From NCBI GenBank assembly GCA_947568835.1, contig OX387612.1, forward strand, positions 439,001 through 503,000: a stretch of 64,000 nt of DNA, in the 5' to 3' direction. Source of the stretch: Protonemura montana (lineage: Eukaryota > Arthropoda > Insecta > Plecoptera > Nemouridae). The notes below the pieces were generated by a model. It was not told the origin of the DNA and searched no databases. It saw only the letters and a list, made by a program, of their open reading frames with translations. Made by a program: the position numbers and the translations under genes. This document shows positions 36,023 through 64,000 of this stretch, piece by piece (positions within the stretch are counted from its first letter, which is position 1; each line of letters opens with the position of its first letter).

Positions 36023-36036
36023 CTTCTCCCCCTTCC
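36023..36036 (-). promoter_or_regulatory. Polypurine tract of the small LTR element
   Basis: On the minus strand this reads GGAAGGGGGAGAAG, fourteen purines ending at the first base before the 3' LTR. This is the standard position of the plus-strand DNA primer in LTR elements. Confidence 0.88.
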
Positions 36037-36298: not shown

Positions 36299-36598
36299 CT
36301 ACAGAACGCAGATCATCTGCATGGAAAAATTGCAATTTGACTCACGACTTGACTCACGACTTGACTCACGACTTGACTCACGACTTGACTCACGACTTGA
36401 CTCACGACTTGACTCACGACTTGATTCCCGCCGCTGACTGAACTCACGATGCTCACTGACACTAGGACGCTCGGACACTTTGTAGACTTCCGACGTAACT
36501 TTTTGACTAATTACATTTGTGTTTTCTTCTGTACACTCCATGGTTTGGGTAATTTCGCATGCTCTCTTGAATGTCAACTTTTCTTTTTCTAGTAGCAC
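36299..36598 (-). pseudogene. gag: Frameshifted C-terminal part of the gag-like gene, with RESS repeats
   Basis: This frame continues the Gag protein after a one-base slip: it opens with LLEKEKLTFKRACEI, a helix-rich stretch like the end of capsid-type Gag proteins (AIQKKLL and KALEIA type in relatives). It then runs into a charged tail with seven or more copies of the tetrapeptide RESS. No CCHC zinc knuckle follows, although Ty3/gypsy Gag usually carries one. Whether the slip is a disabling mutation or a programmed shift cannot be told from one copy; the A-rich run suggests a plain indel. Confidence 0.7.
36339..36422. repeat. 12-bp tandem repeat, seven units, in the gag tail
   Basis: GACTCACGACTT is repeated seven times with no mismatch, followed by a degenerate eighth copy (GATTCCCGCCGC). 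On the minus strand it encodes the repeated RESS tetrapeptide. The 12-bp unit keeps the frame. Confidence 0.95.
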
Positions 36599-37100
36599 TT
36601 TTAAGTTTTTGAATCTTAGATGCGTTTAATAACCCACAGACGAATCGATCCCGAAGCGCGTCATTCAGAAAATTACCAAAATTGCACGACCTAGCTAAGT
36701 GTTGCAGTTCGACTGCATAATCTTTTGATGTTTCCCCGGGCCGCTGGTCCCTTTTTCCAAATTTAAAGCGCTCTGCAAGCTCGTTTTGCTTGGGCAGAAA
36801 GTGACTTTGTAACACTTGCACCAACTCCGGGTAATTCTTTTCTCCTACCTTCGCCGGACATACCAGCCGTTTCAGTAATCCGTATGTTGTTGCCCCAACT
36901 ACGGTGATCAATGTATTCAATTTTGCTACATCTTTAATATTATTTATTTGAAAACACGACTCGAGGCGTTCGATGTACGAGTCTATGTCTTCCAAGCTTT
37001 GCTTCAACTCCAGGAATTGAAAATTATTTTGTGCCATTTGTGTCACTAATTCTACTTCACTTGCCGACACATCCACTAACGTTGGTACACGAACCCTCAT
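36507..37100 (-). pseudogene. gag: Gag-like capsid protein of the small LTR element, main part
   Basis: A 197-codon frame. The recognisable part starts at an internal Met (MAQNNFQFLELKQ) and contains features of Ty3/gypsy-type Gag: an amphipathic start with YIERLESCFQINN, then KLNTLITVVGATTYGLLKRL, YPELVQVLQSHF, and RPGETSKDYAVELQHLARSC followed by LRDRFVCGLLN. Relatives carry the same order (FxxN, LLxxxGxxxYxxL, L-x-HF-P, E-S-x-x-x-F-x-x-x-L-x-x-L-A, and D-R-F-V-C-G-L). The capsid fold forms the particle that packages element RNA. The frame leaves the conserved track at the A-run near 36597-36604, after which the family-like sequence is in another frame, so the gene is probably broken there. 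The upstream Met at 37100 adds 21 residues without recognisable conservation; the internal Met is the better start. Confidence 0.8.
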
Positions 37101-37151
37101 TGACGCAACTTTACTTCTACTTTTACGTAACCGATTTTTATTTCCTAATTC

Positions 37152-37169
37152 CTTTTATCATCGTCGCCA
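37152..37169 (-). promoter_or_regulatory. Primer-binding-like site of the small LTR element
   Basis: On the minus strand, one base after the CA end of the 5' LTR, the sequence reads TGGCGACGATGATAAAAG. Primer-binding sites begin TGG because they pair with the CCA end of a tRNA. TGGCGAC resembles the start of arginine-tRNA primed elements, but I cannot confirm the tRNA. Confidence 0.7.
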
Positions 37170-37170
37170 C

Positions 37171-37330
37171 TGTTATGTTTAATTCTAGGTATTTTATTCA
37201 ATCAGACAGACGTACGTTCCTCAGTACATGCCGGGTATATCTACCCCTCCTCATGGCCTGGGACAGCCTTTATATACTTGATCGGTCCCCTGGACGACCT
37301 TACATATACTGGTTATTGACATACATTACA
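37171..37330 (-). repeat. 5' LTR of the small element (160 bp)
   Basis: On the minus strand it starts TGTAATGTATGTC and ends CATAACA. A TATATAAAGG box lies at about 37267-37276 and AATAAA at 37193-37198, some 70 bp downstream, as expected for a minimal U3-R-U5 unit. It is followed on the plus strand by the second GAAAG. Confidence 0.93.
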
Positions 37331-37335
37331 GAAAG

Positions 37336-39069
37336 GAATGTACGAAGATATCAAAGAATACTGTGCGAATTGCATGTCGTGCCAACAACGACGCAACCCT
37401 CCTTCAAATACTCGCGCTCCCCTCCAACGTTTTCAAGATATGCCCATTTATGCGCCTATCAATGGATATTTTGGGTCCATTTAAACCAACTCCGACTAAC
37501 AATCGCTACCTACTCACAGTAGTTGATCATTTCACCAAATTCATCGTCATCGTACCGATGCATAATCAGACAGCTCACACTGTTGCCCGTGCTTTCTTCA
37601 AGGAAGTTATCAGTAAATTTGGCGTTATGGAACAATTACTTACTAATCGAGGAGCACAATTTACATCACATATGTTCTGCGACCTATGCACTCTCCTCAA
37701 GGTTAAAAAGCTGTTCACTACTAGTTACCGTCCCCAAACAAATGCCGCTATTGAGCGCATGCATCGTGTTATTGCTGATATTATGTCTCATTATACCAGT
37801 GATACTCGTGCTTGTGATGAAATGGTCCCCTTTGTTGAACTAGCAATGCGTAGTTGCATTTCCTCAACAACAGGCTACTCTCCGTTCTATTTAGTATTTG
37901 GTCGCGAAGTTGATCTCCCGTTCGAAGCTTTCATTCGACCTTCACAAACTAACTACGATCCCGACTCGCATTATCCTACTGAAGTGCAAGCCAGAATGTC
38001 CGATGTCACCCTAAAGGTTGGCGACCTTGTGTTGTTATTTATACCTGTCATAGCGCCTAACGTCACGCGTAAGTTTGCCCAACTTTGGTCTGGTCCTTAT
38101 CGTATAACATCTCAGCCTGGTCCAGTCAACTTTGACGTCCAGCACATATATACGAAGAAATCACAACGCGTTCATGTCAATCCTCTCAAACTATTTAAAG
38201 CATTTAACCTCGATGCATTTAATGATGACTTTACTCTCAACGAAAACGCAAGGAATTCTGATTTACCTCCTATTCCAATGTCTGACCAAGTAGACGACTC
38301 TCAAGCTAGCCTGCTTGCCAACCCACCGTCGGCTTACTACTCCTTTGAAAGCGACAGTGATTACGACGATCCACCACCTCCGGTCCCTGACCCTGAAGAA
38401 ATGTGCATAAACCAGCCAGAGCTTGTCGAACCGCCCTTGCCTCAGGCAGACGCTGCAATTCCACTTGTAGCTCTTCCGCATGTTGACAATGCCGAGGATC
38501 CACTACCTGAGATCGAGGATCCTCCCAACGACCTTCCTCTGGGGGATGACCCAGATATGCCACTCATTGAGGCCGTTGCTCCTGATGCACCAGCGATCGC
38601 AGTTCCTCCCTACGAATCTATCGTACGAGATGACCCAGATATGCCACTCATCGAGGACGTTACTCCTGATGCACCAGCGATCGCAGTTCCTCCCTACGAA
38701 TCTATCGTACGAGATGACCCAGATATGCCACTCATCGAGGACGTTACTCCTGATGCACCAGCGATCGCAGTTCCTCCCTACGAATCTATCGTACGAGATG
38801 ACCCAGATATGCCACTCATCGAGGCCGTTACTCCTGATGCACCAGCGATCGCGGTTCCTCCCTACGAATCTATCGTACGAGATGACCCAGATATGCCACT
38901 CATTGAGGCCGTTGCTCCTGCTGCACGACTAAATGACCCACGGCAACCTGATGAGCAGACTTCTCCAATACATAGTCGACACGTCACTCTACGTGAAATG
39001 TTTAATCAACCAAGAAGTTCTTCACCACCAACACTACACGATCTTTTTATCCATCACGACTTTAACCAC
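37336..39069 (+). pseudogene. pol: Ty3/gypsy-type pol remnant: rest of integrase and acidic tail
   Basis: It resumes the integrase zinc finger with the Cys cluster CANCMSCQQRR (37362-37391). A one-base frameshift lies at about 37431-37437, after which the integrase core is read in the frame used from 37363 onward. The core shows MDILGPF with the first catalytic Asp (37465-37467), a second site reading LLTNRGAQFT where relatives have Asp, so Asp is replaced by Asn (37645-37647), and the Glu in NAAIERMHR (37753-37755), spaced D-x35-E. A GPY/F module follows (LWSGPYRITSQPG, near 38085-38125), then an acidic Pro-rich tail with the 84-bp repeats. Integrase would join element DNA to chromosomes; with the insertion, frameshift and Asn substitution this copy cannot be active. 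The tail runs into the 9-bp array without a stop. Confidence 0.92.
38545..38925 (+). repeat. 84-bp tandem repeat in the pol tail
   Basis: Four full copies and a partial fifth start at 38545, 38629, 38713, 38797 and 38881. Each encodes 28 residues with DDPDMPLIE, PDAPAIAVPPYESIV. Copies differ by a few bases (GAGGCC versus GAGGAC, GCAGTT versus GCGGTT). The period keeps the reading frame, so this grew as a coding minisatellite inside pol. Confidence 0.95.
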
Positions 39070-42782
<3,713 letters not shown>

Positions 42783-43541: not shown

Positions 43542-43737
43542 TAGGCATAAGCTGGTGGAGCTTGTCGACTCCAAGTCCACCAACCGCCTCGCTGAATCCC
43601 TGCGCGGCACCGGATCGTTCCACGGAGCTCGACTCCGAGGTCAGCGTCTGCATCAGCCACGGCAGCAGGTCCTCAAAGCTGGCCTTGCCCATGCCACGCA
43701 CCATCGCTCCCAGAGCTTGAGCAAAAACGCTGCGTAC
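43542..43737 (-). CDS. GCN1: Internal exon of GCN1 (eIF2-alpha kinase activator)
   Basis: The 196-bp block translates on the minus strand to a segment beginning VRSVFAQALGAMVRGMG, continuing FEDLLPWLMQTLTSE, VERSGAAQGFSEAVGGLG and ending VDKLHQLMP. I recognise this as the HEAT-repeat region of GCN1, where animal relatives have VRTVSAKALGAMVKGMG, FEDLLPWLMETLT and VDRSGAAQGLAEVMAGLG. GCN1 is a very large ribosome-bound protein that helps GCN2 sense uncharged tRNA. A pyrimidine-rich acceptor (GGGTTTCTCAG) precedes it and a donor-like GTCAGT follows, giving entry at a codon boundary and exit after one extra base. The exon is GC-rich compared with its surroundings. A few changes from usual residues (SAKALG to FAQALG) could mean lineage divergence or an isolated, decaying duplicate exon. 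No other GCN1 exon is in the window. Confidence 0.85.
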
Positions 43738-43846
43738 CTGAGAAACCCAGCGGATGAAAACACAGCTCCAACTGGACACCTCTGTGGGACAAACTGTTGA
43801 AAACCCTGGTGTTGAAAACCAGGGGCCCTAGCTAGAGCAGTAGCAA
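43738..43846. other. Short spacer between GCN1 exon and the 60-bp array
   Basis: On the minus strand it holds the acceptor region of the GCN1 exon. It also contains the near-duplicate phrases GAAAACCCTGGTGTTGAAAA and AAAACCAGGGGCCC, which form a short inverted pair around CCCTGGTGTTG. The first partial repeat unit (GGTATTACTGTCA) begins at about 43847. Confidence 0.6.
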
Positions 43847-45960
43847 TGGTATTACTGTCAGTAGCACCGTGCTAACTAGCACCACCATAGCACCAAGCAG
43901 TGACCCTGGTATTACTGTCAGTAGCACCATGCTAAGTAGCACCACTAAAGCACCAAGCAGTGACCCTGGTATTACTGTCAGTAGCACCGTGCTAACAAGC
44001 ACCACCATAGCACCAAGCAGTGACCCTGGTATTACTGTCAGTAGCACCGTGCTAACTAGCACCACCATAGCACCAAGCAGTGACCCTGGTATTACTGTCA
44101 GTAGCACCGTGCTAACTAGCACCACCATAGCACCAAGCAGTGACCCTGGTATTACTGTCAGTAGCACCGTGCTAACTAGCACCACCATAGCACCAAGCAG
44201 TGACCCTGGTATTACTGTCAGTAGCACCGTGCTAACTAGCACCACCATAGCACCAAGCAGTGACCCTGGTATTACTGTCAGTAGCACCGTGCTAACTAGC
44301 ACCACCATAGCACCAAGCAGTGACCCTGGTATTACTGTCAGTAGCACCGTGCTAACAAGCACCACCATAGCACCAAGCAGTGACCCTGGTATTACTGTCG
44401 GTAGCACCGTGCAAACTAGCACCACCATAGCACCAAGCAGTGACCCTGGTATTACTGTCAGTAGCACCATGCTAACTAGCACCACCATAGCACCAAGCAG
44501 TGACCCTGGTATTACTGTCAGTAGCACCATGCTAACTAGCATCACCATAGCACCAAGCAGTGACCCTGGTATTACTGTCGGTAGCACCGTGCAAACTAGC
44601 ACCACCATAGCACCAAGCAGTGACCCTGGTATTACTGTCAGTAGCACCATGCTAACTAGCACCACCATAGCACCAAGCAGTGACCCTGGTATTACTGTCA
44701 GTAGCACCGTGCTAACTAGCACCACCATAGCACCAAGCAGTGACCCTGGTATTACTGTCAATAGCACCGTGCTAACTAGCACCACAATAGCACCAAGCAG
44801 TGACCCTGGTATTACTGTCGGTAGCACCGTGCAAACTAGCACCACCATAGCACCAAGCAGTGACCCTGGTATTACTGTCAGTAGCACCATGCTAACTAGC
44901 ACCACCATAGCACCAAGCAGTGACCCTGGTATTACTGTCAGTAGCACCGTGCAAACTAGCACCACCATAGCACCAAGCAGTGACCCTGGTATTACTGTCA
45001 GTAGCACCGTGCTAACTAGCACCACCATAGCACCAAGCAGTGACCCTGGTATTACTGTCAGTAGAACCGTGCTAACTAGCACCACCATAGCACCAAGCAG
45101 TGACCCTGGTATTACTGTCAGAAGCTCCATGTTAATTAGCACCACCATAGCACCAAGCAGTGACCCTGGTATTACTGTCAGAAGCTCCATGTTAATTAGC
45201 ACCACCATAGCACCAAGCAGTGACCCTGGTATTACTGTCAGTAGCACCGTGCTAACTAGCACCACCATAGCACCAAGCAGTGACCCTGGCATTACTGTCA
45301 GTAGCACCGTGCTAACTAGCACCACCATAGCACCAAGCAGTGACCCTGGTATTACTGTCAGTAGCACCGTGCTAACTAGCACTACCTAAGCACCAAGCAG
45401 TGACCCTGGTATTACTGTCAGTACCACCGTGCTAACTAGCACCACCATAGCACCAAGCAGTGACCCTGGTATTACTGTCAGTAGCACCATGCTTACTAGC
45501 AACACCATAGCACCAAACAGTGACCCTGGTATGACTGTCAGTAGCACCATGCTAACTAGCACCACCATAGCACCAAGCAGTGACCCTGGTATTACTGTCA
45601 GTAGCACCGTGCTAACAAGCACCACCATAGCACCAAGCAGTGACCCTGGTATTACTGTCAGTAGCACCGTGCTAACTAGCACCACCATAGCACCAAGCAG
45701 TGACCCTGGTATTACTGTCAGTAGCACCGTGCTAACTAGCACCACCATAGCACCAAGCAGTGACCCTGGTATTACTGTCAGTAGCACCGTGCTAACTAGC
45801 ACCACCATAGCACCAAGCAGTGACCCTGGTATTACTGTCAGTAGCACCGTGCTAACTAGCACCACCATAGCACCAAGCAGTGACCCTGGTATTACTGTCA
45901 GTAGCACCATGCTAACTAGCACCACCATAGCACCAAGCAGTGACCCTGGTATTACTGTCG

Positions 45961-48240
45961 GTAGCACCATGCTAACTAGCACCACCATAGCACCAAGCAG
46001 TGACCCTGGTATTACTGTCAGTAGCACCATGCTAACTAGCATCACCATAGCACCAAGCAGTGACCCTGGTATTACTGTCGGTAGCACCGTGCAAACTAGC
46101 ACCACCATAGCACCAAGCAGTGACCCTGGTATTACTGTCAGTAGCACCATGCTAACTAGCACCACCATAGCACCAAGCAGTGACCCTGGTATTACTGTCA
46201 GTAGCACCGTGCTAACTATCACCACCATAGCACCAAGCAGTGACCCTGGTATTACTGTCGGTAGCACCGTGCAAACTAGCACCACCATAGCACCAAGCAG
46301 TGACCCTGGTATTACTGTCAGGAGCACCATGCTAACTAGCACCACCATAGCACCAAGCAGTGACCCTGGTATTACTGTCAGTAGCACCGTGCAAACTAGC
46401 ACCACCATAGCACCAAGCAGTGACCCTGGTATTACTGTCAGTAGCACCGTGCTAACAAGCACCACCATAGCACCAAGCAGTGACCCTGGTATTACTGTCA
46501 GTAGCACCGTGCTAACTAGCACCACCATAGCACCAAGCAGTGACCCTGGTATTACTGTCAGAAGCTCCATGTTAATTAGCACCACCATAGCACCAAACAG
46601 TGACCCTGGTATTTCTGTCAGTAGCACCGTGCTAACTAGCACCACCATAGCACCAAGCAGTGACCCTGGTATTACTGTCAGAAGCTCCATGTTAATTAGC
46701 ACCACCATAGCACCAAGCAGTGACCCTGGTATTACTGTCAGTAGCACCGTGCTAACTAGCACCACCATAGCACCAAGCAGTGACCCTGGCATTACTGTCA
46801 GTAGCACCGTGCTAACTAGCACCACCATAGCACCAAGCAGTGACCCTGGTATTACTGTCAGTAGCACCGTGCTAACTAGCACTACCTTAGCACCAAGCAG
46901 TGACCCTGGTATTACTGTCAGTAGCACCGTGCTAACTAGCACCACCATAGCACCAAGCAGTGACCCTGGTATTACTGTCAGTAGCACCATGCTTACTAGC
47001 AACACCATAGCACCAAGCAGTGACCCTGGTATGACTGTCAGTAGCACCATGCTAACTAGCACCAACATAGCACCAAGCAGTGACCCTGGTATTACTGTCA
47101 GTAGCACCGTGCTAACTAGCACCACCATAGCACCAAGCAGTGACCCTGGTATTACTGTCAGTAGCACCGTGCTAACTAGCACCACCATAGCACCAAGCAG
47201 TGACCCTGGTATTACTGTCAGTAGCACCGTGCTAACTAGCACCACCATAGCACCAAGCAGTGACCCTGGTATTACTGTCAGTAGCACCGTGCTAACTAGC
47301 ACCACCATAGCACCAAGCAGTGACCCTGGTATTACTGTCAGTAGCACCGTGCTAACTAGCACCACCATAGCACCAAGCAGTGACCCTGGTATTACTGTCA
47401 GTAGCACCATGCTAACTAGCACCACCATAGCACCAAGCAGTGACCCTGGTATTACTTTCGGTAGCACCGTGCAAACTAGCAGCACCATAGCACCAAGCAG
47501 TGACCCTGGTATTACTGTCAGTAGCACCATGCTAACTAGCACCACCATAGCACCAAGCAGTGACCCTGGTATTACTGTCAGTAGCACCATGCTAACTAGC
47601 ATCACCATAGCACCAAGCAGTGACCCTGGTATTACTGTCGGTAGCACCGTGCAAACTAGCACCACCATAGCACCAAGCAGTGACCCTGGTATTACTGTCA
47701 GTAGCACCATGCTAACTAGCACCACCATAGCACCAAGCAGTGACCCTGGTATTACTGTCAGTAGCACCGTGCTAACTATCACCACCATAGCACCAAGCAG
47801 TGACCCTGGTATTACTGTCGGTAGCACCGTGCAAACTAGCACCACCATAGCACCAAGCAGTGACCCTGGTATTACTGTCAGGAGCACCATGCTAACTAGC
47901 ACCACCATAGCACCAAGCAGTGACCCTGGTATTACTGTCAGTAGCACCGTGCAAACTAGCACCACCATAGCACCAAGCAGTGACCCTGGTATTACTGTCA
48001 GTAGCACCGTGCTAACAAGCACCACCATAGCACCAAGCAGTGACCCTGGTATTACTGTCAGTAGCACCGTGCTAACTAGCACCACCATAGCACCAAGCAG
48101 TGACCCTGGTATTACTGTCAGAAGCTCCATGTTAATTAGCACCACCATAGCACCAAGCAGTGACCCTGGTATTTCTGTCAGTAGCACCGTGCTAACTAGC
48201 ACCACCATAGCACCAAGCAGTGACCCTGGTATTACTGTCA
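45961..48240. repeat. Duplicated 720-bp block at 1560-bp offset (26 units) in the 60-bp array
   Basis: Units 45961-46680 recur at 47521-48240. Both carry the ordered series ATCACC, GTGCAAAC, CTAACTATC, GTGCAAAC, GGAGCACC, and the GAAGCTCC unit with ATTTCTGTCA. One difference is CACCAAACAG near 46591 against CACCAAGCAG near 48151. It is older than the 6180-bp event because the right-hand copy is inside that block and was duplicated with it. Confidence 0.75.
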
Positions 48241-51200
48241 GAAGCTCCATGTTAATTAGCACCACCATAACACCAAGCAGTGACCCTGGTTTAACTGTCA
48301 GTAGCACCGTGCTAACTAGCACCACCACAGCACCAAGCAGTGACCCTGGTATTGCTGTCAGTATCACCGTGCTAACTAGCACCACCATAGAACCAAGCAG
48401 TGACCCTGGTATTACTGTCAGAAGCTCCATGTTAATTAGCACCACCATAGCACCAAGCAGTGACCCTGGTATTACTGTCAGTAGCACCGTGCTAACTAGC
48501 ACCACCATAGCACCAAGCAGTGACCCTGGTATTACTGTCAGTAGCACCGTGCTAACTAGCACCACCATAGCACCAAGCAGTGACCCTGGTATTACTGTCA
48601 GTAGCACCGTGCTAACTAGCACTACCTTAGCACCAAGCAGTGACCCTGGTATTACTGTCAGTAGCACCGTGCTAACTAGCACCACCATAGCACCAAGCAG
48701 TGACCCTGGTATTACTGTCAGTAGCACCATGCTTACTAGCACCACCATAGCACCAAGCAGTGACCCTGGTATTACTGTCAGTAGCACCATGCTAACTAGC
48801 ACCACCATAGCACCAAGCAGTGACCCTGGTATTACTGTCAGTAGCACCGTGCTAACTAGCACCACCATAGCACCAAGCAGTGACCCTGGTATTACTGTCA
48901 GTAGCACCATGCTAACTAGCACCACCATAGCACCAAGCAGTGACCCTGGTATTACTGTCAGTAGCACCGTGCTAACTATCACCAACAAAGCACCAAGCAG
49001 TGACCCTGGTATTACTGTCTTTAGCACCGTGCAAACTAGCACCACCATAGCACCAAGCAGTGACCCTGGTATTACTGTCAGTAGCACCGTGCAAACTAGC
49101 ACCACCATAGCACCAAGCAGTGACCCTGGTATTACTGTCAGTAGCACCGTGCTAACTAGCACCACCATAGCACCAAGCAGTGACCCTGGTATTACTGTCA
49201 GTAGCACCGTGCTAACTAGCACCACCATAGCACGAAGCAGTGACCCTGGTATTACTGTCAGAAGCTCCATGTTAATTAGCACCACCATAGCACCAAGCAG
49301 TGACCCTGGTATTACTGTCAGTAGCACCGTGCTAACTAGCACCACCATAGCACCAAGCAGTGACCCTGGTATTACTGTCAGAAGCTCCATGTTAATTAGC
49401 ACCACCATAGCACCAAGCAGTGACCCTGGTATAGCTGTCAGTAGCACCATGCTAACTAGCACCACCATAGCACCAAGCAGTGACCCTGGTATTACTGTCA
49501 GTAGCACCGTGCTAACTAGCACCACCATAGCACCAAGCAGTGACCCTGGTATTACTGTCAGAAGCTCCATGTTAATTAGCACCACCATAGCACCAAGCAG
49601 TGACCCTGGTATTACTGTCAGTAGCACCGTGCTAACTAGCACCACCATAGCACCAAGCAGTGACCCTGGTATTATTGTCAGTAGCACCGTGCTAACTAGC
49701 ACCACCATAGCACCAAGCAGTGACCCTGGTATTACTGTTAGTAGCACCGTGCTAACTAGCACTACCTTAGCACCAAGCAGTGACCCTGGTATTACTGTCA
49801 GTAGCACCGTGCTAACTAGCACCACCATAGCACCAAGCAGTGACCCTGGTATTACTGTCAGTAGCACCATGCTTACTAGCACCACCATAGCACCAAGCAG
49901 TGACCCTGGTATTACTGTCAGTAGCACCATGCTAACTAGCACCACCATAGCACCAAGCAGTGACCCTGGTATTACTGTCAGTAGCACCGTGCTAACTAAC
50001 ACCACCATAGCACCAAGCAGTGACCCTGGTATTACTGTCAGTAGCACCGTGCTAACTAGCACCACCATAGCACCAAGCAGTGACCCTGGTATTACTGTCA
50101 ATAGCACCATGCTAACTAGCACCACCATAGCACCAAGCAGTGACCGTGGTATTGCTGTCAGTAGCACCGTGCTTACTAGCACCACCATAGCACCAAGCAG
50201 TGACCCTGGTATTACTGTCAGTAGCACCGTGCTTACAAACACCACCATAGCACCAAGCAGTGACCCTGGTATTACTGTCAGTAGCACCGTGCTAACCAGC
50301 ACCACCATAGCACCAAGCAGTGACCCTGGTATTACTGTCAGTAGCACCGTGCTAACTAGCACCACCATAGCACCAAGCAGTGACCCTGGTATTACTGTCA
50401 GTAGCACCGTGCTAACAAGCACCACCATAGCACCAAGCAGTGACCCTGGTATTACTGTCAGTAGCACCGTGCTAACCAGCACCACCTTAGCACCAAGCAG
50501 TGACCCTGGTATTACTGTCAGTAGCTCCGTGCTAACAAGCACCACCATAGCACCAAGCAGTGACCCTGGTATTACTGTCAGAAGCTCCATGCTAACTAGC
50601 ACCACCATAGCACCAAGCAGTGACCCTGGTATTACTGTCAGTAGCAACAAGCTAACTAGCACCCCCATAGCACCAAGCAGTGACCCTGGTATTACTGTCA
50701 GTAGCACAGTGCTAACTAGCACCACCATAGCACCAAGCAGTGACCCTGGTATAACTGTCAGTAGCACCGTGCTAATTAGCACCACCAAAGCACCAAGCAG
50801 TGACCCTAGTATTACTGTCAGTAGCACCGTGCTAACTAGCACCACCATAGCACCAAGCAGTGACCCTGGTATTACTGTCAGTAGCACTGTGCTAACTAGC
50901 ACCACCATAGCACCAAGCAGTGACCCTGGTATTACTTTCAGTAGCACCGTGCTAACTAGCACCACCATAGCACCAAGCAGTGACCCTGGTATTACTGTCA
51001 GTAGCACCGTGCTAACTAGCACCACCATAGCACCAAGCAGTGACCCTGGTATTACTGTCAGTAGCACCGTGCTAACTAGCACCACCATAGCACCAAGCAG
51101 TGACCCTGGTATTACTGTCAGTAGCACCGTGCTTACTAGCACCACCATAGCACCAAGCAGTGACCCTGGTATTACTGTCAGTAGCACCGTGCTAACTAGC

Positions 51201-54200
51201 ACCACCATAGCACCAAGCAGTGACCCTGGTATTACTGTCAGTAGCACTGTGCTAACTAGCACCACCATAGCACCAAGCAGTGACCCTGGTATTACTGTCA
51301 GTAGCACCGTGCTAACTAGCACCACCATAGCACCAAGCAGTGACCCTGGTATTACTGTCAGTAGCACCATGCAAACTAGCACCACCATAGCACCAAGCAG
51401 TGACCCTGGTATTACTGTCAGTAGCACCGTGCAAACTAGCACCACCATAGCACCAAGCAGTGACCCTGGTATTACTGTCAGTAGCACCGTGCTAACTAGC
51501 ACCACCATAGCACCAAGCAGTGACCCTGGTATTACTGTCAGCAGCACCGTGCTAACTAGCACCACCATAGCACCAAGCAGTGACCCTGGTATTACTGTCA
51601 GAAGCTTCATGTTAATTAGCACCACCAAAGCACCAAGCAGTGACCCTGGTATTACTGTCAGTAGCACCGTGCAAACAAGCACCACCATAGCACCAAGAAG
51701 TGACCCTGGTATTACTGTCAGTAGCACCGTGCAAACTAGCACCACTATAGCACCAAGCAGTGACCCTGGTATTACTGTCAGAAGCTCCATGTTAATTAGC
51801 ACCACCATAGCACCAAGCAGTGACCCTGGTATAACTGTCAGTAGCACCGTGCTAACTAGCACCACCATAGCACCAAACAGTGACCCTGGTATTACTGTCA
51901 GTAGCACCGTGCTAACTAGCACCACCATAGCACCAAGCAGTGACCCTGGTATTACTGTCAGAAGCTCCATGTTAATTAGCACCACCATAGCACCAAGCAG
52001 TGACCCTGGTATTACTGTCAGTAGCACCGTGCTAACTAGCACCACCATAGCACCAAGCAGTGACCCTGGTATTACTGTCAGTAGCACCATGCTAACTAGC
52101 ACCACCATAGCACCAAGCAGTGACCCTGGTATTACTGTCAGTAGCACCGTGCTAACTAGCACCACCATAGCACCAAGCAGTGTCCCTGGTATTACTGTCA
52201 GTAGCACCGTGCTTACTAGCACCACCATAGCACCAAGCAGTGACCCTGGTATTACTGTCAGTAGCACCGTGCTAACAAGCACCACCATAGCACCAAGCAG
52301 TGACCCTGGTATTATGGTCAGTAGCACTGTGCTAACTAGCACCACCGTAGCACCAAGCAGTGACCCTGGTATTACTGTCAGTAGCACCGTGCTAACTAGC
52401 ACCACCATAGCACCAAGCAGTGACCCTGGTATTACTGTCAGTAGCACCGTGCAAACTGGCACCACCATAGCAACAAGCAGTGACCCTGGTATAACTGTCA
52501 GTAGCACCGTGCAAACAAGCAACACCATAGCACCAAGCAGTGACCCTGGTATTACTGTCAGTAGCACCGTGCTAACTAGCACCACCATAGAACCAAGCAG
52601 TGACCCTGGTATTACTGTCAGTAGCACCGTGCTAACTAGCACCACCATAGCACCAAGCAGTGACCCTGGTATTACTGTCAGAAGCTCCATGTTAATTAGC
52701 ACCACCATAGCACCAAGCTGTGACCCTGGTATTACTGTCAGTAGCACCATGCTAACTAGCACCACCATAGCACCAAGCAGTGACCCTGGTATTACTGTCA
52801 GTAGCACCGTGCTAACTAGCACCACCATAGCACCAAGCAGTGACCCTGGTATTACTGTCAGTAGCACCGTGCTAACTAGCACCACCATAGCACCAAGCAA
52901 TGACCCTGGTATTACTGTCAGTAGCACCGTGCTAACTAGCACCACCATAGCACCAAGCAGTGACCCTGGTATTACTGTCAGTAGCAACAAGCTTACTAGC
53001 ACCACCATAGCACCAAGCAGTGACCCTGGTATTACTGTCAGTAGCACCGTGCTAACTAGCACCACCATAGCACCAAGCAGTGACCCTGGTATTACTGTCA
53101 GAAGCTTCATGTTAATTAGCACCACCATAACACCAAGCAGTGACCCTGGTATAACTGTCAGTAGCACCGTGGTAACTAGCACCACCATAGCACCAAGCAG
53201 TGACCCTGGTATTACTGTCAGTAGCACCGTGCTAACTAGCACCACCAAAGCACCAAGCAGTGAACCTGGTATTACTGTCAGTAGCACCGTGCTAACTAGC
53301 ACCACCATAGCACCAAGCAGTGACCCTGGTATTACTGTCAGTAGCACCGTGCTAACTAGCACCACCATAGCACCAAGCAGTGACCCTGGTATTACTGTCA
53401 GTAGCACCGTGCTAACTAGCACCACCATAGCACCAAGCAGTGACCCTGGTATTACTGTCAGTAGCACCGTGCTAACTAGCACCACCATAGCACCAAGCAG
53501 TGACCCTGGTATTACTGTCAGTAGCACCGTGCTAACTAGCACCACCATAGCACCAAGCAGTGACCCTGGTATTACTGTCAGTAGCACCATGCTAACTAGC
53601 ACCACCATAGCACCAAGCAGTGACCCTGGTATTACTTTCGGTAGCACCGTGCAAACTAGCAGCACCATAGCACCAAGCAGTGACCCTGGTATTACTGTCA
53701 GTAGCACCATGCTAACTAGCACCACCATAGCACCAAGCAGTGACCCTGGTATTACTGTCAGTAGCACCATGCTAACTAGCATCACCATAGCACCAAGCAG
53801 TGACCCTGGTATTACTGTCGGTAGCACCGTGCAAACTAGCACCACCATAGCACCAAGCAGTGACCCTGGTATTACTGTCAGTAGCACCATGCTAACTAGC
53901 ACCACCATAGCACCAAGCAGTGACCCTGGTATTACTGTCAGTAGCACCGTGCTAACTATCACCACCATAGCACCAAGCAGTGACCCTGGTATTACTGTCG
54001 GTAGCACCGTGCAAACTAGCACCACCATAGCACCAAGCAGTGACCCTGGTATTACTGTCAGGAGCACCATGCTAACTAGCACCACCATAGCACCAAGCAG
54101 TGACCCTGGTATTACTGTCAGTAGCACCGTGCAAACTAGCACCACCATAGCACCAAGCAGTGACCCTGGTATTACTGTCAGTAGCACCGTGCTAACAAGC

Positions 54201-57200
54201 ACCACCATAGCACCAAGCAGTGACCCTGGTATTACTGTCAGTAGCACCGTGCTAACTAGCACCACCATAGCACCAAGCAGTGACCCTGGTATTACTGTCA
54301 GAAGCTCCATGTTAATTAGCACCACCATAGCACCAAGCAGTGACCCTGGTATTTCTGTCAGTAGCACCGTGCTAACTAGCACCACCATAGCACCAAGCAG
54401 TGACCCTGGTATTACTGTCAGAAGCTCCATGTTAATTAGCACCACCATAACACCAAGCAGTGACCCTGGTTTAACTGTCAGTAGCACCGTGCTAACTAGC
54501 ACCACCACAGCACCAAGCAGTGACCCTGGTATTGCTGTCAGTATCACCGTGCTAACTAGCACCACCATAGAACCAAGCAGTGACCCTGGTATTACTGTCA
54601 GAAGCTCCATGTTAATTAGCACCACCATAGCACCAAGCAGTGACCCTGGTATTACTGTCAGTAGCACCGTGCTAACTAGCACCACCATAGCACCAAGCAG
54701 TGACCCTGGTATTACTGTCAGTAGCACCGTGCTAACTAGCACCACCATAGCACCAAGCAGTGACCCTGGTATTACTGTCAGTAGCACCGTGCTAACTAGC
54801 ACTACCTTAGCACCAAGCAGTGACCCTGGTATTACTGTCAGTAGCACCGTGCTAACTAGCACCACCATAGCACCAAGCAGTGACCCTGGTATTACTGTCA
54901 GTAGCACCATGCTTACTAGCACCACCATAGCACCAAGCAGTGACCCTGGTATTACTGTCAGTAGCACCATGCTAACTAGCACCACCATAGCACCAAGCAG
55001 TGACCCTGGTATTACTGTCAGTAGCACCGTGCTAACTAGCACCACCATAGCACCAAGCAGTGACCCTGGTATTACTGTCAGTAGCACCATGCTAACTAGC
55101 ACCACCATAGCACCAAGCAGTGACCCTGGTATTACTGTCAGTAGCACCGTGCTAACTATCACCAACAAAGCACCAAGCAGTGACCCTGGTATTACTGTCT
55201 TTAGCACCGTGCAAACTAGCACCACCATAGCACCAAGCAGTGACCCTGGTATTACTGTCAGTAGCACCGTGCAAACTAGCACCACCATAGCACCAAGCAG
55301 TGACCCTGGTATTACTGTCAGTAGCACCGTGCTAACTAGCACCACCATAGCACCAAGCAGTGACCCTGGTATTACTGTCAGTAGCACCGTGCTAACTAGC
55401 ACCACCATAGCACGAAGCAGTGACCCTGGTATTACTGTCAGAAGCTCCATGTTAATTAGCACCACCATAGCACCAAGCAGTGACCCTGGTATTACTGTCA
55501 GTAGCACCGTGCTAACTAGCACCACCATAGCACCAAGCAGTGACCCTGGTATTACTGTCAGAAGCTCCATGTTAATTAGCACCACCATAGCACCAAGCAG
55601 TGACCCTGGTATAGCTGTCAGTAGCACCATGCTAACTAGCACCACCATAGCACCAAGCAGTGACCCTGGTATTACTGTCAGTAGCACCGTGCTAACTAGC
55701 ACCACCATAGCACCAAGCAGTGACCCTGGTATTACTGTCAGAAGCTCCATGTTAATTAGCACCACCATAGCACCAAGCAGTGACCCTGGTATTACTGTCA
55801 GTAGCACCGTGCTAACTAGCACCACCATAGCACCAAGCAGTGACCCTGGTATTATTGTCAGTAGCACCGTGCTAACTAGCACCACCATAGCACCAAGCAG
55901 TGACCCTGGTATTACTGTTAGTAGCACCGTGCTAACTAGCACTACCTTAGCACCAAGCAGTGACCCTGGTATTACTGTCAGTAGCACCGTGCTAACTAGC
56001 ACCACCATAGCACCAAGCAGTGACCCTGGTATTACTGTCAGTAGCACCATGCTTACTAGCACCACCATAGCACCAAGCAGTGACCCTGGTATTACTGTCA
56101 GTAGCACCATGCTAACTAGCACCACCATAGCACCAAGCAGTGACCCTGGTATTACTGTCAGTAGCACCGTGCTAACTAACACCACCATAGCACCAAGCAG
56201 TGACCCTGGTATTACTGTCAGTAGCACCGTGCTAACTAGCACCACCATAGCACCAAGCAGTGACCCTGGTATTACTGTCAATAGCACCATGCTAACTAGC
56301 ACCACCATAGCACCAAGCAGTGACCGTGGTATTGCTGTCAGTAGCACCGTGCTTACTAGCACCACCATAGCACCAAGCAGTGACCCTGGTATTACTGTCA
56401 GTAGCACCGTGCTTACAAACACCACCATAGCACCAAGCAGTGACCCTGGTATTACTGTCAGTAGCACCGTGCTAACCAGCACCACCATAGCACCAAGCAG
56501 TGACCCTGGTATTACTGTCAGTAGCACCGTGCTAACTAGCACCACCATAGCACCAAGCAGTGACCCTGGTATTACTGTCAGTAGCACCGTGCTAACAAGC
56601 ACCACCATAGCACCAAGCAGTGACCCTGGTATTACTGTCAGTAGCACCGTGCTAACCAGCACCACCTTAGCACCAAGCAGTGACCCTGGTATTACTGTCA
56701 GTAGCTCCGTGCTAACAAGCACCACCATAGCACCAAGCAGTGACCCTGGTATTACTGTCAGAAGCTCCATGCTAACTAGCACCACCATAGCACCAAGCAG
56801 TGACCCTGGTATTACTGTCAGTAGCAACAAGCTAACTAGCACCCCCATAGCACCAAGCAGTGACCCTGGTATTACTGTCAGTAGCACAGTGCTAACTAGC
56901 ACCACCATAGCACCAAGCAGTGACCCTGGTATAACTGTCAGTAGCACCGTGCTAATTAGCACCACCAAAGCACCAAGCAGTGACCCTAGTATTACTGTCA
57001 GTAGCACCGTGCTAACTAGCACCACCATAGCACCAAGCAGTGACCCTGGTATTACTGTCAGTAGCACTGTGCTAACTAGCACCACCATAGCACCAAGCAG
57101 TGACCCTGGTATTACTTTCAGTAGCACCGTGCTAACTAGCACCACCATAGCACCAAGCAGTGACCCTGGTATTACTGTCAGTAGCACCGTGCTAACTAGC

Positions 57201-59460
57201 ACCACCATAGCACCAAGCAGTGACCCTGGTATTACTGTCAGTAGCACCGTGCTAACTAGCACCACCATAGCACCAAGCAGTGACCCTGGTATTACTGTCA
57301 GTAGCACCGTGCTTACTAGCACCACCATAGCACCAAGCAGTGACCCTGGTATTACTGTCAGTAGCACCGTGCTAACTAGCACCACCATAGCACCAAGCAG
57401 TGACCCTGGTATTACTGTCAGTAGCACTGTGCTAACTAGCACCACCATAGCACCAAGCAGTGACCCTGGTATTACTGTCAGTAGCACCGTGCTAACTAGC
57501 ACCACCATAGCACCAAGCAGTGACCCTGGTATTACTGTCAGTAGCACCATGCAAACTAGCACCACCATAGCACCAAGCAGTGACCCTGGTATTACTGTCA
57601 GTAGCACCGTGCAAACTAGCACCACCATAGCACCAAGCAGTGACCCTGGTATTACTGTCAGTAGCACCGTGCTAACTAGCACCACCATAGCACCAAGCAG
57701 TGACCCTGGTATTACTGTCAGCAGCACCGTGCTAACTAGCACCACCATAGCACCAAGCAGTGACCCTGGTATTACTGTCAGAAGCTTCATGTTAATTAGC
57801 ACCACCAAAGCACCAAGCAGTGACCCTGGTATTACTGTCAGTAGCACCGTGCAAACAAGCACCACCATAGCACCAAGAAGTGACCCTGGTATTACTGTCA
57901 GTAGCACCGTGCAAACTAGCACCACTATAGCACCAAGCAGTGACCCTGGTATTACTGTCAGAAGCTCCATGTTAATTAGCACCACCATAGCACCAAGCAG
58001 TGACCCTGGTATAACTGTCAGTAGCACCGTGCTAACTAGCACCACCATAGCACCAAACAGTGACCCTGGTATTACTGTCAGTAGCACCGTGCTAACTAGC
58101 ACCACCATAGCACCAAGCAGTGACCCTGGTATTACTGTCAGAAGCTCCATGTTAATTAGCACCACCATAGCACCAAGCAGTGACCCTGGTATTACTGTCA
58201 GTAGCACCGTGCTAACTAGCACCACCATAGCACCAAGCAGTGACCCTGGTATTACTGTCAGTAGCACCATGCTAACTAGCACCACCATAGCACCAAGCAG
58301 TGACCCTGGTATTACTGTCAGTAGCACCGTGCTAACTAGCACCACCATAGCACCAAGCAGTGTCCCTGGTATTACTGTCAGTAGCACCGTGCTTACTAGC
58401 ACCACCATAGCACCAAGCAGTGACCCTGGTATTACTGTCAGTAGCACCGTGCTAACAAGCACCACCATAGCACCAAGCAGTGACCCTGGTATTATGGTCA
58501 GTAGCACTGTGCTAACTAGCACCACCGTAGCACCAAGCAGTGACCCTGGTATTACTGTCAGTAGCACCGTGCTAACTAGCACCACCATAGCACCAAGCAG
58601 TGACCCTGGTATTACTGTCAGTAGCACCGTGCAAACTGGCACCACCATAGCAACAAGCAGTGACCCTGGTATAACTGTCAGTAGCACCGTGCAAACAAGC
58701 AACACCATAGCACCAAGCAGTGACCCTGGTATTACTGTCAGTAGCACCGTGCTAACTAGCACCACCATAGCACCAAGCAGTGACCCTGGTATTACTGTCA
58801 GTAGCACCGTGCTAACTAGCACCACCATAGCACCAAGCAGTGACCCTGGTATTACTGTCAGAAGCTCCATGTTAATTAGCACCACCATAGCACCAAGCTG
58901 TGACCCTGGTATTACTGTCAGTAGCACCATGCTAACTAGCACCACCATAGCACCAAGCAGTGACCCTGGTATTACTGTCAGTAGCACCGTGCTAACTAGC
59001 ACCACCATAGCACCAAGCAGTGACCCTGGTATTACTGTCAGTAGCACCGTGCTAACTAGCACCACCATAGCACCAAGCAATGACCCTGGTATTACTGTCA
59101 GTAGCACCGTGCTAACTAGCACCACCATAGCACCAAGCAGTGACCCTGGTATTACTGTCAGTAGCAACAAGCTTACTAGCACCACCATAGCACCAAGCAG
59201 TGACCCTGGTATTACTGTCAGTAGCACCGTGCTAACTAGCACCACCATAGCACCAAGCAGTGACCCTGGTATTACTGTCAGAAGCTTCATGTTAATTAGC
59301 ACCACCATAACACCAAGCAGTGACCCTGGTATAACTGTCAGTAGCACCGTGGTAACTAGCACCACCATAGCACCAAGCAGTGACCCTGGTATTACTGTCA
59401 GTAGCACCGTGCTAACTAGCACCACCAAAGCACCAAGCAGTGAACCTGGTATTACTGTCA
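47101..59460. repeat. Tandem duplication of a 6180-bp block (103 units of 60 bp)
   Basis: Positions 47101-53280 and 53281-59460 are adjacent and almost identical, unit by unit. Rare variants line up at exactly 6180 bp, such as the ATCACC unit (47581 and 53761), GTCTTTAGCACC (near 49018 and 55198), CGTGGTATTGCT (50145 and 56325) and TGTCCCTGG (near 52182 and 58362). Rare differences exist, for example ATAGAACC at 52588 against ATAGCACC at 58768. Confidence 0.9.
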
Positions 59461-62400
59461 GTAGCACCGTGCTAACTAGAACTACCTTAGCACCAAGCAG
59501 TGGCCCTGGTATTACTGTCAGTAGCACCGTGCTAACTAGCACCACCATAGCACCAAGCAGTGACCCTGGTATTACTGTCAGTAGCACCATGCTAACTAGC
59601 ACCACCATAGCACCAAGCAGTGACCCTGGTATTACTGTCAGTAGCACCGTGCTAACTAACACCACCATAGCACCAAGCAGTGACCCTGGTATTACTGTCA
59701 GTAGCACCGTGCTAACTAGCACCACCATAGCACCAAGCAGTGACCCTGGTATTACTGTCAATAGCACCATGCTAACTAGCACCACCATAGCACCAAGCAG
59801 TGACCGTGGTATTGCTGTCAGTAGCACCGTGCTTACTAGCACCACCATAGCACCAAGCAGTGACCCTGGTATTACTGTCAGTAGCACCGTGCTTACAAAC
59901 ACCACCATAGCACCAAGCAGTGACCCTGGTATTACTGTCAGTAGCACCGTGCTAACCAGCACCACCATAGCACCAAGCAGTGACCCTGGTATTACTGTCA
60001 GTAGCACCGTGCTAACTAGCACCACCATAGCACCAAGCAGTGACCCTGGTATTACTGTCAGTAGCACCGTGCTAACAAGCACCACCATAGCACCAAGCAG
60101 TGACCCTGGTATTACTGTCAGTAGCACCGTGCTAACCAGCACCACCTTAGCACCAAGCAGTGACCCTGGTATTACTGTCAGTAGCTCCGTGCTAACAAGC
60201 ACCACCATAGCACCAAGCAGTGACCCTGGTATTACTGTCAGAAGCTCCATGCTAACTAGCACCACCATAGCACCAAGCAGTGACCCTGGTATTACTGTCA
60301 GTAGCAACAAGCTAACTAGCACCCCCATAGCACCAAGCAGTGACCCTGGTATTACTGTCAGTAGCACAGTGCTAACTAGCACCACCATAGCACCAAGCAG
60401 TGACCCTGGTATAACTGTCAGTAGCACCGTGCTAATTAGCACCACCAAAGCACCAAGCAGTGACCCTAGTATTACTGTCAGTAGCACCGTGCTAACTAGC
60501 ACCACCATAGCACCAAGCAGTGACCCTGGTATTACTGTCAGTAGCACTGTGCTAACTAGCACCACCATAGCACCAAGCAGTGACCCTGGTATTACTTTCA
60601 GTAGCACCGTGCTAACTAGCACCACCATAGCACCAAGCAGTGACCCTGGTATTACTGTCAGTAGCACCGTGCTAACTAGCACCACCATAGCACCAAGCAG
60701 TGACCCTGGTATTACTGTCAGTAGCACCGTGCTAACTAGCACCACCATAGCACCAAGCAGTGACCCTGGTATTACTGTCAGTAGCACCGTGCTTACTAGC
60801 ACCACCATAGCACCAAGCAGTGACCCTGGTATTACTGTCAGTAGCACCGTGCTAACTAGCACCACCATAGCACCAAGCAGTGACCCTGGTATTACTGTCA
60901 GTAGCACTGTGCTAACTAGCACCACCATAGCACCAAGCAGTGACCCTGGTATTACTGTCAGTAGCACCGTGCTAACTAGCACCACCATAGCACCAAGCAG
61001 TGACCCTGGTATTACTGTCAGTAGCACCATGCAAACTAGCACCACCATAGCACCAAGCAGTGACCCTGGTATTACTGTCAGTAGCACCGTGCAAACTAGC
61101 ACCACCATAGCACCAAGCAGTGACCCTGGTATTACTGTCAGTAGCACCGTGCTAACTAGCACCACCATAGCACCAAGCAGTGACCCTGGTATTACTGTCA
61201 GCAGCACCGTGCTAACTAGCACCACCATAGCACCAAGCAGTGACCCTGGTATTACTGTCAGAAGCTTCATGTTAATTAGCACCACCAAAGCACCAAGCAG
61301 TGACCCTGGTATTACTGTCAGTAGCACCGTGCAAACAAGCACCACCATAGCACCAAGAAGTGACCCTGGTATTACTGTCAGTAGCACCGTGCAAACTAGC
61401 ACCACTATAGCACCAAGCAGTGACCCTGGTATTACTGTCAGAAGCTCCATGTTAATTAGCACCACCATAGCACCAAGCAGTGACCCTGGTATAACTGTCA
61501 GTAGCACCGTGCTAACTAGCACCACCATAGCACCAAACAGTGACCCTGGTATTACTGTCAGTAGCACCGTGCTAACTAGCACCACCATAGCACCAAGCAG
61601 TGACCCTGGTATTACTGTCAGAAGCTCCATGTTAATTAGCACCACCATAGCACCAAGCAGTGACCCTGGTATTACTGTCAGTAGCACCGTGCTAACTAGC
61701 ACCACCATAGCACCAAGCAGTGACCCTGGTATTACTGTCAGTAGCACCATGCTAACTAGCACCACCATAGCACCAAGCAGTGACCCTGGTATTACTGTCA
61801 GTAGCACCGTGCTAACTAGCACCACCATAGCACCAAGCAGTGTCCCTGGTATTACTGTCAGTAGCACCGTGCTTACTAGCACCACCATAGCACCAAGCAG
61901 TGACCCTGGTATTACTGTCAGTAGCACCGTGCTAACAAGCACCACCATAGCACCCAGCAGTGACCCTGGTATTATGGTCAGTAGCACTGTGCTAACTAGC
62001 ACCACCGTAGCACCAAGCAGTGACCCTGGTATTACTGTCAGTAGCACCGTGCTAACTAGCACCACCATAGCACCAAGCAGTGACCCTGGTATTACTGTCA
62101 GTAGCACCGTGCAAACTGGCACCACCATAGCAACAAGCAGTGACCCTGGTATAACTGTCAGTAGCACCGTGCAAACAAGCAACACCATAGCACCAAGCAG
62201 TGACCCTGGTATTACTGTCAGTAGCACCGTGCTAACTAGCACCACCATAGCACCAAGCAGTGACCCTGGTATTACTGTCAGTAGCACCGTGCTAACTAGC
62301 ACCACCATAGCACCAAGCAGTGACCCTGGTATTACTGTCAGAAGCTCCATGTTAATTAGCACCACCATAGCACCAAGCTGTGACCCTGGTATTACTGTCA

Positions 62401-63060
62401 GTAGCACCATGCTAACTAGCACCACCATAGCACCAAGCAGTGACCCTGGTATTACTGTCAGTAGCACCGTGCTAACTAGCACCACCATAGCACCAAGCAG
62501 TGACCCTGGTATTACTGTCAGTAGCACCGTGCTAACTAGCACCACCATAGCACCAAGCAATGACCCTGGTATTACTGTCAGTAGCACCGTGCTAACTAGC
62601 ACCACCATAGCACCAAGCAGTGACCCTGGTATTACTGTCAGTAGCAACAAGCTTACTAGCACCACCATAGCACCAAGCAGTGACCCTGGTATTACTGTCA
62701 GTAGCACCGTGCTAACTAGCACCACCATAGCACCAAGCAGTGACCCTGGTATTACTGTCAGAAGCTTCATGTTAATTAGCACCACCATAACACCAAGCAG
62801 TGACCCTGGTATAACTGTCAGTAGCACCGTGGTAACTAGCACCACCATAGCACCAAGCAGTGACCCTGGTATTACTGTCAGTAGCACCGTGCTAACTAGC
62901 ACCACCAAAGCACCAAGCAGTGAACCTGGTATTACTGTCAGTAGCACCGTGCTAACTAGAACTACCTTAGCACCAAGCAGTGGCCCTGGTATTACTGTCA
63001 GTAGCACCGTGCTAACTAGCACCACCATAGCACCAAGCAGTGACCCTGGAATTACTGTCA
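56101..63060. repeat. Tandem duplication of a 3480-bp block (58 units of 60 bp)
   Basis: Positions 56101-59580 and 59581-63060 are adjacent and nearly identical. The ACTAGAACTACCTTAG unit with TGGCCCTGG recurs at 59461 and 62941, and the CTAACTAAC unit at 56161 and 59641. Differences include CACCCAGCAG near 61953 where the partner has CACCAAGCAG, and CCTGGAATT near 63046. The left part of this block lies inside the second 6180-bp copy, so it is the later event. Confidence 0.9.
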
Positions 63061-64000
63061 GTAGCACCATGCTTACTAGCACCACCATTGCACCAAGCAG
63101 TGACCCTGGTATTACTGTCAGTAGCACCATGCTAACTAGAACCACCATAGCACCAAGCAGTGACCCTGGTATTACTGTCAGTAGCACCGTGCTAACTAGC
63201 ACCACCATAGCACCAAGCAGTGACCCTGGTATTACTGTCAGTAGCACCATGCTAACTAGCACCACCATAGCACCAAGCAGTGACCCTAGTATTACTGTCA
63301 GTAGCACCGTGCTAACTATCACCACCAAAGCACCAAGCAGTGACCCTGGTATTACTGTCGGTAGCACCGTGCAAACTAGCACCACCATAGCACCAAGCAA
63401 TGACCCTGGTATAACTGTCAGTAGCACCGTGCAAAATAGCACCACCATAGCACCAAGCAGTGACCCTGGTATTACTGTCAGTAGCACCGTGCTAACTAGC
63501 ACCACCATAGCACCAAGCAGTGACCCTGGTATTACTGTCAGTAGCACCGTGCTAACTAGCACCACCATAGCACCAAGCAGTGACCCTGGTATTACTGTCA
63601 GAAGCTCCATGTTAATTAGCACCACCATAGCACCAAGCAGTGACCCTGGTATTACTGTCAGTAGCACCGTGCTAACTAGCACCACCATAGCACCAAGCAG
63701 TGACCCTGGTATTACTGTCAGAAGCTCCATGTTAATTAGCACCACCATAGCACCAAGCAGTGACCCTGGTATAACTGTCAGTAGCACCGTGCTAACTAGC
63801 ACCACCATAGCACCAAGCAGTGACCCTGGTATTACTGTCAGTAGCACCGTGCTAACTAGCACCACCATAGCACCAAGCAGTGACCCTGGTATTACTGTCA
63901 GAAGCTCCATGTTAATAAGCACCACCATAGCACCAAGCAGTGACCCTGGTATTACTGTCAGTAGCACCGTGCTAACTAGCACCACCATAGCACCAAGCAG

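Follow-up and report, generated by a model that had tools for sequence, protein, structure and literature searches.

A 60-bp satellite array and a flanking GCN1-like exon lie at the right-hand end of the window, the 64,000-nucleotide stretch of DNA analysed here (C15:439001-503000, in a genome of 258 Mb). The array continues past the window to C15:511563 and comprises 478 copies over 28.7 kb. The exons identified at both of its flanks are GCN1-like and on the minus strand, and the array sits between them in a predicted GT-AG intron whose splicing we infer from exon places and splice contexts. The features are as follows.

43546..43737, minus strand: GCN1-like exon (VRSVFAQALGAMVRGMGK...DKLHQLM), downstream of the array-bearing intron, located by sequence match
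43738..64000, minus strand: GCN1-like intron that holds the array, window portion, predicted from exon places and splice contexts
43847..64000, no strand: window part of the 60-bp satellite array, from Tandem Repeats Finder and unit-by-unit register
45386..45389, no strand: stop common to the plus and minus open frames, in one unit with two adjacent changes
C15:482738-511674, minus strand: whole array-bearing intron as predicted, GT-AG, about 28.9 kb
C15:511675-511824, minus strand: GCN1-like exon upstream of the array-bearing intron, outside the window

When the downstream exon was joined with the exons that precede it, the product gave a collinear match across the junction to a PDB chain named GCN1 and to a longer chain, and it matched Pfam HEAT_EF3_GNC1. 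The next downstream GCN1-like exon (in the C1 frame from C1:30156011) had no match in C15:419001-583000 with large arrays masked, and the C15 copy appears to be partial rather than an intact gene within that interval. The same exon pair recurs at C12 and C1. The C1 copy of the intron is 656 bp long and holds six 60-bp units, among which a 26-bp spacer, flanked by GTAACCC-type direct repeats, occurs three times. The number of satellite units in this intron thus runs from six in C1 through about 125 in C12 (from coordinates) to 478 in C15, a series that can be used to study the onset and growth of a satellite within an intron. The C1 copy is probably the ancestral one, judging from the part of the C1 gene that was read.

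Unit length and growth of the array

Tandem Repeats Finder placed the array at 43847-64000, with a period of 60, 335.9 copies and 0% indels. All 335 full units from 43901 are in exact register despite substitutions (mean of 1.7 and maximum of 7 per unit relative to the consensus), and the window part contains 77 distinct units, with 68 variant types spread across 47 of the 60 columns. The strict unit length described in a sequence-only reading of this DNA was therefore confirmed for the window, but it does not extend to the whole array, where 472 of 477 complete units are 60 bp long. The five exceptions, three of 71 bp and two of 61 bp, occur in the last 8.6 kb (C15:504172, 506023, 506714, 507245 and 508756), and each of them shifts the frame. 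That reading had also set the array against 30-bp arrays of variable length. Window alignments of the latter did reveal net changes of -4, -2, -1, +1, +2, +4 and +10 bp, but the +6 class that had been described was absent.

Exactly repeated blocks, defined as exact repeats of at least 8 units carrying at least four different non-consensus alleles, account for 315 of the 477 units. The blocks span 90, 39, 39 and 18 units at lags of 103, 161, 58 and 58 units, respectively; a misassembly may account for the exact 90-unit repeat. The C15 array grew via in-register block duplication, and given these repeats the apparent independence of its units is overstated. An amplification mode that purges length variants had been suggested earlier; the amplification by in-register blocks is borne out, but the purging, as stated, is rejected because the 71-bp variant was copied as well and now stands at three places in the array.

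The strictness of the array was compared with that of other DNA by counting indel and substitution types. A 41-bp array located 16 kb further on (521.7 units) has 4 indel types and 63 substitution types, compared to 3 and 91 for the whole 60-bp array (p 0.45). The 41-bp array, whose period rules out keeping a frame, is not distinguishable from the 60-bp array in strictness; when the window part alone is compared with it, the difference is borderline (p 0.058). Most of the other arrays of the 60-bp family that were read are strict, which makes strict length a common property of the family: no indel was found in 11 of 14 dispersed arrays of the unit or in four pieces of the C12 array that overlap one another. 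It is possible, at somewhat short of an even chance, that the strictness comes chiefly from youth, such that few independent units and few mutations are present and the lack of indels in the window is near chance. The extent of the repeated blocks agrees with this explanation, as do two further observations: the window part has 68 substitution types, and it does not differ significantly in indel types from the remainder of the C15 array (p 0.11). In contrast, the unique C15-C1 flanks are richer in indels than the whole array (10 indels to 70 substitutions; p 0.04), and the lack of indels in most of the other arrays read also speaks against youth as the chief cause. Some length conservation remains, independent of frame.

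Coding potential of the repeat

The 60-bp period is divisible by three, and the plus frame is free of stops from 45390 to 63998, up to the window edge, as had been proposed; this open frame of 18.6 kb in the window reaches 6603 aa across the whole locus. Serine, threonine or proline make up 12 of the 20 consensus residues of its translation, again as predicted. MUC1-type coding VNTRs likewise have a 20-residue repeat, and the unit resembles them in its 60-bp length and its Ser/Thr/Pro-rich frame. These properties would fit a giant mucin-like coding exon in which selection on the 20-residue repeat maintains the period, as the sequence-only reading had suggested, but we consider such an exon extremely improbable. 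The minus frame is equally open, from 64000 down to 45386, and both frames carry the shared stop at about 45386-45389, within the window. Openness of the plus frame proves little, because none of the 180 single substitutions of the unit creates a stop (two of 180 do so in the minus frame); the frames are open as a consequence of a period that is a multiple of three and of unit codons far removed from stops.

The pattern of substitutions carries no sign of selection on either frame. Variant types are distributed over the three codon positions as 18/27/23, with no third-position excess when both strands are considered. Synonymous types number 17 of 68 in the plus frame (18.5 expected) and 23 of 68 in the minus frame (24.1 expected). 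The array differs from MUC1-type repeats in this missing codon signature, in its frame shifts (5 of 477 complete units, C15:504172-508756) and in its location between GCN1-like exons that lie on the minus strand at both flanks. Furthermore, the 41-bp array, with a period that is not a multiple of three, is not distinguishable from it in strictness. Coding on either strand was rejected on the basis of the frame shifts, the absent synonymous bias and this control array. The locus is a worked case of how weakly a strict period and a long open frame speak for coding in a tandem array; the control for the coding inference is the neighbouring array, whose period three does not divide.

The satellite family and the origin of the array

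Exact 31-mers of the unit occur 2405 times genome-wide, compared to 0 for the reversed control. All 14 dispersed places that were fetched carry arrays of the unit (2.6-38.7 units each), and 28 of the 29 array places among the matches listed are no more than 3 Mb from a contig end. This presence at many sites, together with a homogenised 478-copy tandem array containing exactly repeated blocks of up to 90 units, is what characterizes a satellite. The C15 array is very probably a non-coding satellite, of a minisatellite family, that expanded in place within one intron of a GCN1-like gene, a partial duplicate located close to the end of C15. Because this is the most likely origin, the array is largely ordinary.

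Under this explanation, the seed would have been a short diverged group of six units, of the kind that survives in the same GCN1 intron of the C1 copy, and spacer loss between the GTAACCC-type direct repeats may have produced the pure 60-bp array. The array would then have grown in large blocks as in-register units underwent unequal exchange or conversion, with either enzymatic mode presumed. In-register exchange would preserve the period, so that substitutions would accumulate and spread while length variants stay rare; length variants, once arisen, would be copied like other variants.

Subterminal minisatellites and euchromatic satellite DNA have a homogenised unit at many sites, lie near chromosome ends and grow by blocks. 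The family described here shares with subterminal minisatellites the homogenised multi-site unit, the concentration near chromosome ends and the block growth. It differs from them in that the 28.7-kb array fills a single intron of a gene fragment and in that a six-unit form of the GCN1 intron survives on another chromosome. A paper on Tribolium, PMC3411249, deals with satellite-like elements located near genes. No title about the 60-bp satellite was found in the open-access literature by a search framed mostly on sea anemones, which is no proof of unpublished status; in the main text of PMC10719294, on sea anemone genomes, words beginning with "telomer" and "satellite" occur 0 times.

A different source of the unit would be the inside of a MITE-like small transposon with inverted ends that spread genome-wide, the big arrays being expanded insides. 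We regard this as unlikely, although several features point to it. A 20-bp motif is found 1-5 bp from the left edge of 4 of the 14 fetched arrays with at most two mismatches, and at one array (L033) it is inverted at the right edge with one mismatch. Satellite origins of this type are reviewed in sections of PMC9659126 and PMC12628747, and a section of the latter treats miDNA4 and Xstir of Xenopus as MITE-borne satellites. The two resemble the present unit in having short internal tandem repeats that expand and direct-repeat microhomology beside the unit; they differ from it in their inverted ends, which just one of the 14 fetched sites here shows clearly. Against a MITE-like source, 8 of the 14 arrays lack the motif within 100 bp of either edge at up to 7 mismatches, and the matches with 6-7 mismatches (L035 right, L036, L037 and C15 itself) are attainable from shuffled flanks.

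Besides the GCN1-like locus, where we favor expansion of a satellite within an existing intron, four dispersed arrays lie in predicted introns of other genes, bounded by exon edges read in their flanks. These introns measure 2414 bp (L029), 2082 bp (L032), 1304 bp (L039) and 1725 bp (L040), of which 94, 32, 72 and 42 bp, respectively, are not satellite. Flanking exons carry the putative labels CKAP5-like, GH16-like, WNK-like and C2H2-like. Ten flanking-exon queries of Pfam supported CCDC113/CCDC96 and protein kinase; VWC was matched by three queries, two of them below the curated cut-off, and M13 peptidase was matched below the cut-off. There was no Pfam match for 3 of the 10 queries, including the CKAP5-like one, which carried an extra residue at the exon junction and matched nothing in Pfam or PDB. 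That the satellite makes introns, with unit arrays forming nearly the whole intron rather than merely occupying it, seems improbable to us; if it does, and relatives lack these introns, the satellite would be an introner-like driver of the gain or replacement of introns near chromosome ends. Introns nearly filled by one unit in unrelated genes offer a lead, open to testing, on how introns grow or are gained. The 60-bp unit contains the word CTAAC, which resembles a branch-point consensus, and the 5' splice site of the L032 intron, GTCAGT, comes directly from the unit.

Unit length and reading frame of the 60-bp array

The genome comprises 258,480,905 bases in 34 contigs, and the right edge of the window (C15:439001-503000) falls within the 60-bp satellite array, which continues along the same contig.

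Window 43847 to C15:511563: 60-bp array, 478 copies
C15:504172, 507245 and 508756: 71-bp units, all with an identical 11-bp duplication
C15:506023 and 506714: 61-bp units (+1)

Unit-by-unit reading of the window part revealed exact register in 335 of 335 full units, with 68 variant types, 574 substitution cells and no indels. The sequence-only reading, which had remarked on a strict 60-bp length, was therefore correct for what was visible to it; beyond the window edge the strictness broke down, with 472 of the 477 complete units measuring 60 bp and five of odd length (three of 71 bp, two of 61 bp). The observation is thus right but local. The shared 11-bp duplication is most simply a single event that was then copied.

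The same reading had offered a mucin-like coding exon as one of two explanations. Every odd unit length found (71 and 61 bp) loses the frame, and the longest plus frame, of 6603 aa, closes at C15:504198, just past the first 71-bp change. The consensus unit is open in two of its six frames, one per strand. This is weakly informative, since of the 180 possible single substitutions none introduces a stop codon into the plus frame and 2 do so in the minus frame. A two-base change near 45386 accounts for the sole stop within the window and hits both frames. With the count of each base-change type held fixed, synonymous variant types numbered 17 of 68 in the plus frame (18.5 expected) and 23 of 68 in the minus frame (24.1 expected). 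Codon positions 1, 2 and 3 of the plus frame held 18, 27 and 23 variant types and 239, 174 and 161 substitution cells, respectively. The suggested selection on a reading frame found no backing here, since neither strand showed a synonymous or third-position excess; the synonymous counts for the 68 variant types of the window part gave no sign of codon-level selection. We rejected the coding explanation on the basis of the frame-shifting units and this lack of codon-level signal. The array is an ordinary type of satellite whose location is instructive.

A predicted GCN1-like intron, its copies and other satellite-filled introns

The array lies between two exons.

C15:482546-482737 (window 43546-43737), minus strand: exon left of the array, reading VRSVFAQALGAMVRGMGKASFEDLLPWLMQ...
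C15:511675-511824, minus strand: exon right of the array, reading ERSTKTRKMAAQIIGNMYSLTDQKDL...

The upstream exon ends in CCAGAG, followed by GTTGGT, and the intron ends in TTTCTCAG, followed by GTACGC. The peptide query consisted of both exons joined plus an exon piece from a nearby 105-bp array. It matched the 2898-residue PDB chain 8i9x_LR over residues 1-131 (E 2e-48, gap-free at the junction); this chain is labeled ribosomal protein L19 in the table, but we take the protein to be of GCN1 type. The peptide also matched PDB chain 7nrc_A, named GCN1 (residues 1-89, E 9.4e-30), and Pfam HEAT_EF3_GNC1 (E 3.6e-18). Because the joined flanking exons match a GCN1 chain and this domain, we place the 60-bp array in a predicted GCN1-like intron of ∼28.9 kb, which it fills. 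The 105-bp array (C15:513042-518717, outside the window; 54 copies, 98% matches) holds the GCN1 exon piece FVHLIDSPSLDLIIPVMQRAFQ in each unit, with AG before and GT after; contig C4 likewise opens with this GCN1 exon repeat at 105-bp spacing (C4:37-5370).

The left flank of the array occurs at three genome places, on C15, C12 (96%) and C1 (91%), all with both exons. The C1 intron measures 656 bp and contains six 60-bp units; three times they are interrupted by a 26-bp spacer, GACCTAGAGCGGTGATTCG..., which is flanked by direct repeats of the GTAACCC type. The C12 intron (∼7.7 kb) is mostly array, ∼125 units by coordinates, with no indels in the four overlapping pieces read; its downstream exon has one TGA. 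The right array edge, CCCTGACCTAGAGCGG, is identical on C1 and C15, as would fit array growth in place. The GCN1 copy on C15 seems to be partial, as the next exon, as read on C1, had no match in C15:419001-583000 with large arrays masked. Between C15 and C1, the 192-bp exon shows five changes in synonymous and seven in non-synonymous codons, small counts that suggest relaxed constraint.

The genome contains 2405 exact matches to a 31-mer from the unit (1134 forward, 1271 reverse) and none to the reversed control. Among the matches listed, 28 of 29 array places, on seven contigs of known length, lie <3 Mb from a contig end (expected fraction, 0.28); these places were drawn from the best or first matches listed, with C1 over-represented and two C13 places left out. 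Fourteen dispersed arrays, among them L029, L032 and L040, were fetched: three contained indels (L038, L039 and L041), two of them with the 26-bp spacer parting units, and 11 contained none. For pieces of C15, indels were present in the L002 and L003 arrays and absent from L004, L005 and L008.

At L040, the two array-flanking exons join into a collinear Pfam CCDC113/CCDC96 match (53.1 bits, versus 41.4 for the second exon alone). Pfam also indicated VWC-type exons on both sides of L029 and to the left of L032, an M13 peptidase-like exon after L042 and a protein kinase exon adjoining L035, several of the matches for flanking exons being below curated cut-offs. At L029, L032, L039, L040 and L042, arrays of the unit occupy introns of unrelated genes almost completely. 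Four of the 14 dispersed arrays, picked for exon edges readable from flanking sequence on both sides, were measured: the non-satellite part of the intron amounts to 94 (L029), 32 (L032), 72 (L039) and 42 bp (L040). The unit shares the orientation of the host gene at L029, L032 and L039, and has the opposite orientation at L040 and in GCN1. The predicted 5' splice site at L032 reads straight from the 60-bp unit. Old short introns may have been filled, or the introns may have come with the satellite.

Indel frequency and array growth

Arrays were compared across C15:419001-583000.

C15:527509-548903: 41-bp array, 521.7 units, 4 types of indel against 63 substitution types

In the 60-bp array, 3 indel types stand against 91 substitution types, which does not differ significantly from the 41-bp array (Fisher p 0.45), whose period cannot hold a reading frame. 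Counter to our reading, the window part alone gave p 0.058 against the 41-bp array and p 0.11 against the remainder of its own array. The 105-, 62-, 22-, 13-, 9- and second 60-bp arrays contain no indels, but only 2-23 substitution types each. The two 30-bp arrays gave 7 indel types to 65 substitution types and 8 to 70, and indels abound in two more arrays, with periods of 20 and 28 bp; arrays therefore differ among themselves. The unique flanks of the GCN1 copies, left plus right, differ by 10 indels and 70 substitutions (C15-C1), 7 and 43 (C15-C12) and 9 and 60 (C1-C12), the three counts being non-independent. Compared with the C15-C1 flanks, the 60-bp array is lower in indels (p 0.04), and the 41-bp array is not significantly lower (p 0.26).

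Coded as unit alleles, the 60-bp array comprises 125 alleles (47 singletons). An exact 90-unit repeat, C15:486141-491540 and 492321-497720 (window 47141-52540 and 53321-58720; lag of 103 units, 6180 bp), reflects either duplication in the very recent past or an error of assembly. Other exact block repeats span 39 units at lag 161, 39 at 58, 18 at 58 and 14 at 24, and 315 of 477 units lie within exactly repeated blocks of at least 8 units. Of 351 cases, only 3 showed a non-consensus allele common to two neighbouring units, which argues for growth by blocks rather than unit by unit. In-register block exchange, as the block pattern suggests, would keep the period without any selection.

Other elements in and near the window

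A single 1721-aa open frame (window 37282-42447) runs from a putative retroelement integrase-like part through an 84-bp repeat and a 9-bp repeat (364.6 units, no indels) and makes a stronger coding-array candidate than the 60-bp array does. Within the putative retroelement, a ∼1.4-kb insertion (window 35863-37330) is bounded by 160-bp direct repeats (157 identical; window 35863-36022 and 37171-37330) enclosing a 215-aa minus frame (window 36507-37154), resembling a small LTR element lodged inside a larger one. The 30-bp satellite is broken by a 4.3-kb A+T-rich segment (window 23548-27830) that carries palindromic repeats of the CAAGATCTTG type at each end and resembles a mobile element with repeat-rich ends. 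Outside the window, at C15:519213-519481, five copies of a 52-bp unit look like part of a tRNA or candidate tRNA-derived SINE.
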